From Ampullaceana balthica (Eukaryota; Mollusca; Gastropoda; Lymnaeidae), in NCBI GenBank assembly GCA_944989445.1, contig CALYLW010000135.1:1-64000 (forward strand): a DNA stretch of 64,000 nt. Direction: 5' to 3'. Numbering within the stretch: the first letter of the stretch is position 1; every line of letters begins with the position of its first letter. Positions 55,701-61,700 of the stretch are shown here, piece after piece. Made by a program: the position numbers and the translations under genes. The notes beneath the pieces were generated by a model. The model worked only from the letters and a program-made list of their open reading frames with translations, did not search any database and was not told the DNA's origin.

Positions 55701-58700
55701 CCCCTCTCATAAAAGCCTTACTTCTTTTTTGAAAATGAGCATGTGTCAAATAACTTTATTGTCATTTAATTTTTTTTTATTTGAAGTTGAACTCTGAAAA
55801 TCGCTACTCACTTAAATCCATGTAAAACGTCATTAAATAAATTGTAAGCAATCAAATATTTCAGTGGAACTTTTATTTAAAGGTTCGCGTTTTGATGTGC
55901 GTCACATTTATTCTTAAACACACCCCCCCCTTGTCACAAATGTGTGACACCCTCCTCCCCTAGGTGCGTAACGTCATTTATGGACGGGCCCTTATCCATA
56001 TTACACTGTTAATAACTAATTTATTGACTTTTAAAACTTACACATTTTGGTGTACAGTCGAACCCACTTATCTCGAGCTCGGTTATATCGACCACCCTAT
56101 TATGTCGACGTTTTTTATTGGAACCGCCAAATTCTCTCTTTGTCTTAGCATTTTCTCATCGGTAATGTCGATTCTTTTATGTCGCCGAAACCTAGTATCT
56201 CGAGCACAAAAGAGGGCCAAATTTGCAACTTAACTCGATTTTCGTCGGTTGAAAATAAAGGTTTGTATCGAGAATCGACGGTGGTTTTTATATAATTAAA
56301 TAAAAAAAATTAATAAATTATTATTCTTTTAAAAGTTTGTTGTTGTTGCTTTGTTACCAGTAAGATAAGTGACTGTGACACTAACACGCGCGTGACGATG
56401 AAACTGATTAACACAGTACTGTGTCAGTACACACAGCCCACAGCGTGCTGTGATCAACGGTCAAGGCCACAATAGTTTTATTTATATTACAAGTTTGATT
56501 GACTGAGGAAATTCGAGAGCGTTCTGATAGTAACAGATATCCTGCACGTCAAAAGCATTAAACTTAAAATTACCATATTGATATGTTTATTTTTTTTTAT
56601 TTGCTGATTCGACGGGCATTGCAAACGCGATCGGCTGTGACACGCGCCATGGGACGACGCGAGGCGAAAACTTTGACCTTTTAACGCATGCGCAGACAAT
56701 TATAAACTGGTAACTTTTTTTAAAATTATTAAATGGAATCGAAACATGACAGAGACGTTATCAAAGTCCTTTACTTCGGCATAAATATATATACATCAAA
56801 AGCATTAAACTTAAAATAACCATATTGATTTGTTATTTGTATTTTAAATTCGCAAACGCGACTGTGACACGGCGAAGCGTAAACTTTAACCTTTTAGCGC
56901 ATGCGCAGACAATTATAAACTGGTAACTTATTTTTCATTAAATAAATGGAATCGAAACATGACAGAGACGTAATCAAAGTCCTTTACTTCGGCATAAATA
57001 TAGATACATGTGTATATATATGTATATATATATATATATAAATTCCCGATTAGTCATAACTTTTCCCGACTTTCAAGGCCGAGAATTTATTTTTAAGAAT
57101 TCCCGACTTTTTCCCGTTTTCCTGAGTGGGAACCATGGTTATAGTTATATTTAAATTTTAAACGGTCCTTAAAAACGAACGGTCATTACATTAATTACAA
57201 CCTTAGACTTAGGAAAGAGTGAAGAAATATTAGGGTTCCGATACGATTCCGATAAATCATCCCATCACTAATTAACGCTAACTAATTAATCATGTACATA
57301 AAGAAATTTCAAGCACATGTTAATATTTTGCCGCCATATTGATTTTCCTTTATCTCGATCATCGGTTATGTCGACGCCATTTTTCATACCCCAACGCCGT
57401 CGACATAAGCGGTTTCGACTGTATTATTAAAATCAGTTTTTGGGTAACTCACACTCTGTAATGAGCACACGAAAAACAATCGAATGGAGGGAGGAGGAGG
57501 GGGTAGATAAACAACATCGACAATCGTAAACCCAATGTTTGGTTAATATAGACATTGAAGCCACATTTTCACGGGTACCCGGGCGGAATTTTACTACCCG
57601 GGTAATCTCACGTGCAACGGGTACCCGGGTCCCGGGTACCCGTTGACAGGCCTACTTGTAACACAAAAGAACTATTTAAAAATCTTTTCAGCATAAAAAT
57701 GATTTAAATATTTTGAATTCACACATTTTAGAAAAGCAAAGAATAGATAGAGTAGCCTCAAAGAATAGATAGAGTAGCCTCAAAGAATAGATAGAGTAGC
57801 CTCAAAGAATAGATAGAGTAGCCTCAAAGAATAGATAGAGTAGCCTCAACGATTTTAAAAGTTTGTGTAGCTTTTAAGTCATATCTTAGGGAAGTGAAAT
57901 ATTAATAAAACGTTTTACAGTAAAAAAGCAAACTTTTTAGAAATATTTTCCAAATAAATGTGTTCATTGATGTTATTAATAACCAAGAAATTCTTAAGTA
58001 GAAACAACAAAGGAAGAAAAGAATTGAGATTTCAAGAGGAAGTAATTAACAAGAACATTTGTTACACTGTTACAGCTTGATACTTACGATTACACAATTT
58101 CTTCAACTGTGTGATGGCTGACAGGCTGCTAACTGAAGCTTTACCAGAGACTAAATTCTCTGCCAGTTTGGATGAGACAAACTTTGTGTAGAGTTTCTCT
58201 TGTAATGGACTCAGTTTACAGCAGATGACATGTTCAACTGGAACACAAATAAAGGGGGGTCAATCTTTTAGCCTCAAAGAAATTTCAAAGCACTCGGCAG
58301 TCCCACAAAACTATAGAGGAATTATTCATCAATTTAATTTTTTAGGACAATGATTTGTTAAAAAAAAATAGTCATTTTTATATTTTGTTGCATTGATTTA
58401 ACTATTTTAAAAAATAAATAAATAACTGTCATAACTCACCGGAAAATTTAACAAAAGTAAAACAGGGTCAGACTGCAGAGATTATGAAATGAAAATAATA
58501 GATCTGTACCATATTCAGTACATTAGAGCAACTTACTTTTGACAGAAATATTTGGTGAGACTTACTTTTGACAGGTAAATATTTGGTGAGACTTACTTTT
58601 GACAGGTAAATATTTGGTGAGACTTACTTTTGACAGGTAAATATTTGGTGAGCCTTACTTTTGACAGGTAAATATTTGGTGAGCCTTACTTTTGACAGGT

Positions 58701-61700
58701 AAATATTTGGTGAGCCTTACTTTTGACAGGTAAATATTTGGTGAGACTTACTTTTGACAGGTAAATATTTGGTGAGACTTACTTTTGACAGGTAAATATT
58801 TGGTGAGACTTACTTTTGACAGGTAAATATTTGGTGAGACTTACTTTTGACAGGTAAATATTTGGTGAGACTTACTTTTGACAGGTAAATATTTGGTGAG
58901 ACTTACTTTTGACAGGTAAATATTTGGTGAGACTTACTTTTGACAGGTAAATATTTGGTGAGACTTACTTTTGACAGGTAAATATTTAGTGAGAAGAGCC
59001 TGAGTCCTTCGTATGATACACTTGTTTACTATTGACAACAACTGAAAAAAACCAAACAAACATGAAACATGATAAGTAAAGTCTGTTAACAAACATGAAA
59101 CATGAAAGTAAAGTCTGTTAATAAACATGAAACATGATAAGTAAAGTCTGTTAACAAACATGAAATATGATAAGTAAAGTCTGTTAACAAACATGAAACA
59201 TGATAAGTAATGTCTGTTAACAAACATGAAACATGATAAGTAAAGTCTGTTAACAAACATGAAACATGATAAGTAAAGTCTGTTAACAAACATGAAACAT
59301 GATAAGTAAAGTCTGTTAACAAACATTTATTGAATTATGTATATGTAAAGCAATATAAAGGTTAATACATTCTGCAGCCATTTGATTGCTCTCACAGTCT
59401 ATTTACCTCTTGCAGTTTCTCCTCTCCCTTCTTATGATATTCATCAGTAGCATCAGCATCTCTTCCCCTTAAGATTGGTGTTTCAAATTTTCTTTTAAAT
59501 TCCTGAGCCGTTCCTAAAGTTGCAAAGAGATAGATTTTAACTATACAATGATCCTTGCCCATGTTAAGACTAGGCCAGTCAACGGGTACCCGGGCAGCTT
59601 TTTTCAACAATATTGACAGCCCTAGTTAAGACTAGGCCTGTCAACGGGTACAGGGGCAGCTTTTTTCAACAATATTGACAGCCCTAGTTAAGACTAGATT
59701 ATATCTATAACTGTAAGGGAATATCAGCACATGAAGTTCAGAATGCTATCATTTATAACAAGGGAGGTAATCAAGCCTACCTAAAATTCCTCTGTTGACA
59801 AAATGAAGCAGACTGAAGTATTCTAGTAAATCATTCTGAATAGGGGTACCAGATAAAAGAATTCTCCTCTTTGCATTCAACTGAGTTAAGGCCTGATAAG
59901 TCTGATTCTCAGAGTTCTTCAGCCTGTGACCCTATGATAAAGAAGACATAAATTACTCATTATTTTTATAATAATAAAAGATAGACATTTGGGAAGTCTC
60001 AGGGCGACAGTATGACAATAATAATAATATGTAACTTTGGTGAATTTTGGTGAACAGTATGACAATAATATGTAACTTTGGTGAACAGTATGACCATTAT
60101 ATGTAACTTTGGTGAACAGTATGACAATAATATGTAACTTTGGTGAACAGTATGACAATAATATGTAACTTTGGTGAACAGTATGACAATAATATGCAAC
60201 TTTGGTGAACAGTATGACAATAATATGTAACTTTGGTGATATTTTCAAAACCTATTTAAATATAATTAAGAATCACGGATTTTGCAAATTGTAGGCAACT
60301 TTTGGCCTGAGCTTAGAGATATTATTCAGATTAATCCATGTCCAAATTTCAGGGTCAGGAATCCACTGCCGAATTGGTACCTTCCTGTATATACTTTCTG
60401 ACAAGACATCCCTTCTGCTCCATCGTAATACCAGTGTGTAAAACCTCTAAATGAACAACTCACATAATTATGCGGGCAATTAATTGATAGTCCCTCACAA
60501 AACAAATCTCTTATAAATTGTTTTCATAACAATATTAAATGCCTTTGATGACATACTATATGAAACGTTTACAAAACTAATTAATATGTGTTTATCATAG
60601 TCTTGTAATGCAGTGCTTCTCAAAGTGGTGGTCCGCGGACCGGTGCCGGTCCGTGGGCCATCCGCCACCGGTCCGCAGAAGTTATGAAAAAAAGGACAGA
60701 AAAAATCGTCAGTGCAGGGAAAATACGGTACCGGTCCCCGGTGCAAGGGAAAAAATTCCTGCCGGTCCGCCATACTAAAAAGTTTGAGAAGCACTGTTGT
60801 AATGGACTAACCAGATAGCACACACATTAGAATAGCTGTTACCTCATCACAAATGACAAGCCCCACTTCTCCTTTGTGTAAAACAGATGCATGGAGACGA
60901 AAGGTTTCATATGATATGATCAGAACAGGAAACTGAATTCTCCTGTTTTGTTGCTGCATAAAATGAACTGGAAATAAAAGGGTAACTCTCAAATACAAAT
61001 TTATGCAAAGCAATTTGTGAAAAAAACTAAAAGTTTTAAAATGAAAACTGCAACTGTGGCACAATATATAAACACATTGTTTACAATATATATACACTAT
61101 ACACCATATAATTTTTACAATATAAATATACACCATCGAATGTTTACAATACATATATATATATAGACCATCTAATGTTTACAATATATATATATACACC
61201 ATCTAATGTTTACAATATATATATATACACCATCTGTTTACAATATATATATACAACATCTAATGTTTACAATATATATATACAACATCTAATGTTTACA
61301 ATATATATACACCATCTAATGTTTACAATATGTATACACCATCTAATGTTTACAATATGTATACACCATCAATGTTTACAATATGTATACACCATCTAAT
61401 GTTTACCCAGATTTCTATCGATTTCACTTTTAGTCCCCGAGTCAATGGCCAGAGCTTGAATTCTTGTTCCCAGCCACTTGCCAAGTTCATTGTGCCAGTT
61501 CTACAATGCAGACCACAGATTTTAATTAGTTTATATTCAGGGAAAATATTGCAATGGAATGTTAATAAGAAGATGAATTTCTGCACTGTTAAAAACTTTT
61601 AAATTTCAGTGCCACAAAATATTAACCACCATAAACATTTTGTCATAATGAAAAATGTTTCAACGTAAAGATAAAAAGAATGTCATTAATATAGAATGTG

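Follow-up and report, generated by a model that had tools for sequence, protein, structure and literature searches.

A minisatellite in a RAD54L-like gene of the snail Ampullaceana balthica repeats the end of an exon together with its 5′ splice site, and raises the question of which of its fifteen donors could be used and what the others do to the gene. The window analysed here comprises the first 64,000 nucleotides of contig CALYLW010000135.1; the next 208 kb of the contig were also analysed, and the 5′ part of the gene was found there.

Anatomy of the Exon 13 Donor Array

The RAD54L-like gene lies on the minus strand, to which the exons, splice sites and boundary arrays below refer. Exons 7-20 and the final base of exon 6 fall within the window (46594..64000), and exons 1-6 occupy 72857-64000 of the same contig in numbering continuous with the window. 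The model comprises 20 coding exons and 19 introns with GT-AG ends, and its product of 741 residues differs at 17 positions from P0001, the closest known protein. In a protein search, the window part of the gene matched P0001 at 98%, Physella acuta at 92% and Biomphalaria at 88-89%. The gene is intact. P0001 derives from a relative's 2,389-nt contig, which encodes 741 residues, is too short to hold introns and is therefore very probably a spliced transcript; its junctions are the normal ones, in a relative that may or may not carry the arrays.

Coding exon 13 (59041-58969; 73 nt, 24 residues plus 1 nt) follows the acceptor GGTTTTTTTCAG. TRF reports an array at 58531-58994 with a period of 31, 15.0 copies and 98% matches, and its 31-bp unit, CTCACCAAATATTTACCTGTCAAAA/GTAAGT (the slash marks the exon end), consists of the last 25 nt of exon 13 followed by GTAAGT. 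The exonic copy of the unit (25 nt; 58969-58993) is followed by the authentic 5′ splice site GTAAGT (58963..58968, donor G at 58968) and then by 14 intronic tandem copies (58531..58962), 13 of 31 bp and one of 29 bp, each with one decoy donor. The array thus reaches 438 bp into intron 13, the remainder of which (58238..58530, 293 nt) runs to the acceptor TTTATTTGTGTTCCAG, with the next exon starting from 58237. The original prediction, made from the window alone, had described this unit as 25 exonic nucleotides plus GTAAGT repeated from the real junction and had counted 15 donors, and both statements hold; the array also lies, as proposed, at a RAD54L exon end, but its “exon 7” was counted from the window edge and is coding exon 13 of 20.

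Twelve of the 15 donors read GTAAGT and three read GTAAGG (58720, 58689 and 58658), so that the decoys comprise 11 GTAAGT and three GTAAGG sites. The exonic copy is one silent base apart from all intronic copies (CTCACT versus CTCACC), the final unit is two bases short, and the interior units are identical save for a block of three that shares one change. A search of the snail's own genome (1,097,344,711 bases in 3,363 contigs) returned a single full match to the array, its own locus, together with 17 other matches at 66-71% alike. An unrelated 33-bp minisatellite (59055..59326) ends 13 nt before the exon 13 acceptor, placing the 73-nt exon between two arrays. The opposite (+) strand of 58531-58994 carries 14 copies of CAG/GTAAAT, a good donor-like site (4.82 bits; U1 dG −8.3 for the one copy scored), with no known gene there.

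Further Boundary Arrays in the Gene

Three arrays of the RAD54L-like gene span splice sites together with part of an exon, containing 15 donors, 4 donors and 20 acceptors, respectively; the last two had been missed by the original prediction. The exon 6 donor array (63913-64004, of which 63913-64000 is in the window) has a period of 22, 4.2 copies and 100% matches. Exon 6 ends in ATGAAATG/GTATGT, and repetition of AAATG/GTATGT gives four equal donors, of which all three decoys add a stop. The acceptor array of intron 1 (70918-72525, just outside the window) has a period of 82, 19.6 copies and 98% matches; its 82-bp unit joins the end of intron 1 to the first 29 nt of exon 2, yielding 20 near-identical acceptors of the form GGTCCCAG or GGTCCTAG, and each of its 19 decoy acceptors leads to a stop. 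Truncation follows from every decoy of the three arrays (36/36; 14 + 3 + 19), and in all three the productive site adjoins the exon body, being the first donor, the first donor and the last acceptor.

A further array, with a unit of about 27 bp (61098..61406, minus strand), has its first base precisely on the donor G of intron 9 (61406) and repeats GTAAAC, with nine later exact copies that constitute weak decoys (ATT/GTAAAC, U1 −1.6). Overall, 17 arrays occupy 13 of the 19 RAD54L introns (46594-72857). The units of these 17 arrays are mostly unrelated, and one intron holds two arrays (46880-47010 and 47178-47313) with units that are nearly mutual reverse complements.

Comparison with Known Systems

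Minisatellite-like tandem repeats lying over exon-intron boundaries, 5′ or 3′, are reported from amphioxus under the name of mirages, in Adh3, the globins BflGb6 and BflGb9, and TnC, with imperfect repeats in PGBD5 (PMC3087553, PMC3902484). Their units measure 10-72 bp in Adh3 and about 150-160 bp in the globins (PMC3087553). According to the accessible parts of these reports, many units carry AG/GT signals, the arrays are homogenised inside with the edge units left out, and their length is unstable, without interference in regular splicing (PMC3087553, PMC3902484). The exon 13 array resembles the mirages so described in crossing an exon-intron boundary, which is fixed here by the spliced protein model, in a 31-bp unit that falls within the Adh3 range, and in having near-identical interior units with deviating units at both edges; also like mirages, RAD54L has both donor and acceptor boundaries affected. 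As to regular splicing, a normal junction is found in the intron-free contig of the relative, not of A. balthica. The arrays differ from the amphioxus cases in their gastropod host and in the presence of three spanning arrays (15, 4 and 20 sites) in one gene, and whereas splicing and length variation have been reported for amphioxus, the snail arrays are known from the sequence of one assembly.

A minisatellite with multiple splice donors in human IFI6 was reportedly described by Turri in 1995. Two papers that cite this work (PMC2572611 and PMC4526556) credit the IFI6 (6-16, G1P3) minisatellite with several donors, and, as far as they describe it, the exon 13 array is similar, each of its units having a donor-consensus 5′ splice site where the exonic part ends. 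Unlike in IFI6, where two downstream units are used for isoforms, every distal snail donor is predicted by translation to truncate the product; we rejected IFI6-like isoforms since all 14 distal donors would truncate and leave no readable protein. In abalone, intron 3 of a TSSK1-like gene contains a 27-bp minisatellite with a copy number that differs between individuals (PMC6905558), which is likewise intronic and of similar unit length but, in the accessible part of that report, is described without mention of splice-site inclusion. Papers on earthworm metallothionein and on Conus genes describe intronic repeats, none of them mentioned as boundary-spanning in the accessible portions, and in the literature searched, of which coverage was partial, we recognised no boundary-spanning array from a mollusc. 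The array belongs to a known kind; what is new is the host and the presence of three such arrays in a single gene.

Donor Choice and the Effect of Decoys

Predicted U1 pairing gave −5.6 kcal/mol for the real exon 13 donor and 11 decoys, and −5.0 kcal/mol for the three remaining decoys, in agreement with the proposal that each unit offers a near-identical U1 site. With a splice matrix (an approximate human one, applied to a snail host), GTAAGT donors scored 5.12 bits and GTAAGG donors 3.92 bits, the real donor being equal to 11 of its 14 decoys. Among 13 RAD54L donors scored by U1 pairing (−4.3 to −11.2), the real exon 13 donor is one of the weaker. Its predicted accessibility was 0.046, second of the 15 but low, with values of 0.006-0.093 for the other donors of the array and the highest, 0.093, at 58565. 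No computed feature (U1 energy, matrix score or accessibility over the 15 donors) clearly singles out the real donor. Masking of the decoys by RNA structure was rejected, as predicted accessibility was low and similar across donors.

By translation only, each of the 14 exon 13 decoys brings in a stop, always at the twelfth codon after LPVK. The original prediction of a premature stop from every distal donor is borne out, but not its placing of a TAA at the end of the first extra unit: the first decoy meets a TGA in the next exon, and TAA applies from the second decoy on. The donor nearest to the acceptor is often favoured in splicing; at the exon 13 array, use of that donor would break RAD54L. 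Both this preference and the lack of a computed feature marking the real donor count against the reading preferred below.

Since all 36 decoys truncate and the reading frame is nevertheless intact, the exon-adjacent sites appear to be used often enough for selection to maintain the protein. These productive sites equal or nearly equal their decoys and lie farthest from their intron partner; they could be selected neither by their strength nor by proximity, and exon-wide recognition is the most likely means of choice. We consider it probable that the exon 13 array is a mirage, a tolerated by-product of frequent array birth, in which the exon-adjacent site is used and the decoys stay mostly silent. 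The splicing machinery would take the site that touches the exon body, probably through exon definition. A duplication over the boundary would preserve the exon whole, with an undamaged splice site at the outer edge of the exon, and the message would be unchanged if that site is used.

Alternatively, the decoys could serve dose control: by competing with the real sites they would introduce a stop into some of the transcripts, which would then be degraded, and array lengths would tune RAD54L output. Truncation by 36 of 36 decoys in the three arrays, most of them equal in sequence to the real site, agrees with such a role. However, no truncated protein from a close relative was present among the best 120 of 5,757 matches, a weak test because of 90% clustering and NMD; the amphioxus precedents, in the accessible parts of the reports, describe normal splicing (PMC3087553, PMC3902484); and the arrays are near-uniform and hence young. 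We regard dose control as unlikely, and NMD-based control of RAD54L as possible but unsupported. The lowered RAD54L output of the original prediction is likewise unsupported, and the neutral decoy, which it had offered as an alternative, fits better. Because RAD54 acts in recombination, the process through which arrays change in length, gene dose and array length could influence each other. That RAD54L output is throttled by the 36 decoys of the three introns, to a degree set by array lengths and with such feedback, has only a slim chance of being correct.

Array Density and Chance Tests

Arrays in the window and the following 208 kb were called with a fixed rule (period 10-100, at least 3 copies, span of at least 60 bp, best score among overlaps), which kept 122 of 245 TRF rows and thus 122 arrays in 272 kb. 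Tests within the window used hand-merged lists from 64 TRF rows: the shift test drew on 35 arrays, the in-window RAD54L introns on 14, donor scoring on 30 and the introns of a WDR83-like gene on 8; dinucleotide runs, eight rows below 50 bp and overlapping rows were omitted from one or all of these lists. Minisatellites cover 22% of the window when counted as 35 merged arrays and 20.7% under the fixed rule, by which they make up 31.6% of the following 208 kb. One of the WDR83-like introns contains a 33-bp array of about 56 copies (19059-20833), shortly behind a reverse-transcriptase-like frame, and a DNAJ-like frame, labelled by eye, at 36993-38192 (+) has a two-copy 48-bp repeat ahead of it.

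After random shifting of the arrays, 5.5 of 19 RAD54L donors, 5.5 acceptors and 644 exon bases would be expected within arrays, whereas 3/19 donors, 1/19 acceptors and 60/2,223 exon bases were observed. Both sites and exon bases fall below expectation, suggesting that arrays are kept out of exons, and with three donors observed against 5.5 expected, there is nothing rare in itself about an array that contains a donor, although the exon 13 array as such is no product of chance. The notable point is that three arrays of one gene each take in a splice site and part of an exon.

In further chance tests, which were made after the first case had been seen and are partly post hoc and limited to one gene, uniform placement of arrays within introns predicted 0.10 splice-site contacts, against 4 of 38 sites seen (P about 1e-5). 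Random seeding predicted 0.58 spanned RAD54L boundaries at contig density (P 0.021) and 0.78 at the gene's own density (P 0.045), with three seen. The random-seeding model is the fairest to the by-product reading, and a mild excess remains. An expectation of 0.6-0.8 against three seen (P 0.02-0.045) means that chance births come near to the observation; the excess, together with four contacts against 0.10, leaves room for preferred seeding, i.e., for array birth favoured at exon-intron junctions in the snail genome. Against such targeting, none of the six introns (two with approximate ends) of the WDR83-like gene in the window has an array in contact with a splice site, and donor-bearing arrays are not enriched among the 122. 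Targeted seeding, for which the excess comes from one gene, is in our view very unlikely.

A general excess of donor-bearing arrays was rejected, as 5/122 arrays have a donor of at least 3.9 bits against 4.2 in the null, and likewise at 5.1 bits (2/122 against 1.5). Within the window, a recurring donor of at least 3.9 bits was found in the exon 13 array only, of 36 arrays, and when one unit per array was scored, in 1/30 arrays. At 173574-174245 of the contig, a 63-bp array of 10.7 copies carries a strong donor-like CAG/GTGAGT (8.5 bits). We also rejected a bias of arrays towards donors: in RAD54L, 8 of 13 occupied introns have an array within 110 nt of the donor against 5.1 expected (P 0.031; P 0.007 in an earlier, partial test of the in-window introns that omitted 63913-64000), but this was unrepeated in the WDR83-like gene (1/4 against 0.65 expected).

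A tolerated by-product remains the reading that we prefer. In a genome this rich in arrays, births may occur at many places; an array confined to an exon would damage the protein, while one that crosses a boundary would be tolerated. For exon 13, we infer that a 31-bp stretch over the exon-intron junction was duplicated in tandem, by slippage or unequal exchange, then expanded, and that the array is young and nearly neutral.

Discussion

Three remaining explanations fare worse. The extra sites could be helpful, for instance by attracting U1 and thereby marking out a short exon or protecting the intron against premature polyadenylation, and 14 near-consensus U1 sites within 438 nt might serve this end; other introns manage without them, however, and the 20-acceptor array would be left unexplained, which makes such a benefit highly improbable. 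Inflation of the arrays or of their copy numbers during assembly deserves a thought with a single assembly to hand, and copy numbers may be off, but the internal variants, the deviating edge units and the 122 arrays in 272 kb look real, and we give an artefact very little credence. Boundary duplicates might also be giving rise to new exons or introns, a course proposed for the amphioxus globins in the accessible part of that report, which would start from a duplication of the same kind (PMC3087553); this is scarcely to be expected here, as no decoy yields an open frame.

As far as the literature searched goes, the arrays described here extend boundary-spanning minisatellites to molluscs, with three of them within one conserved gene. 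The boundary arrays are most likely neutral; regulation is possible, without support so far. With productive sites set among identical or near-identical copies, the gene offers natural sequences on which exon definition could be put to a direct test.
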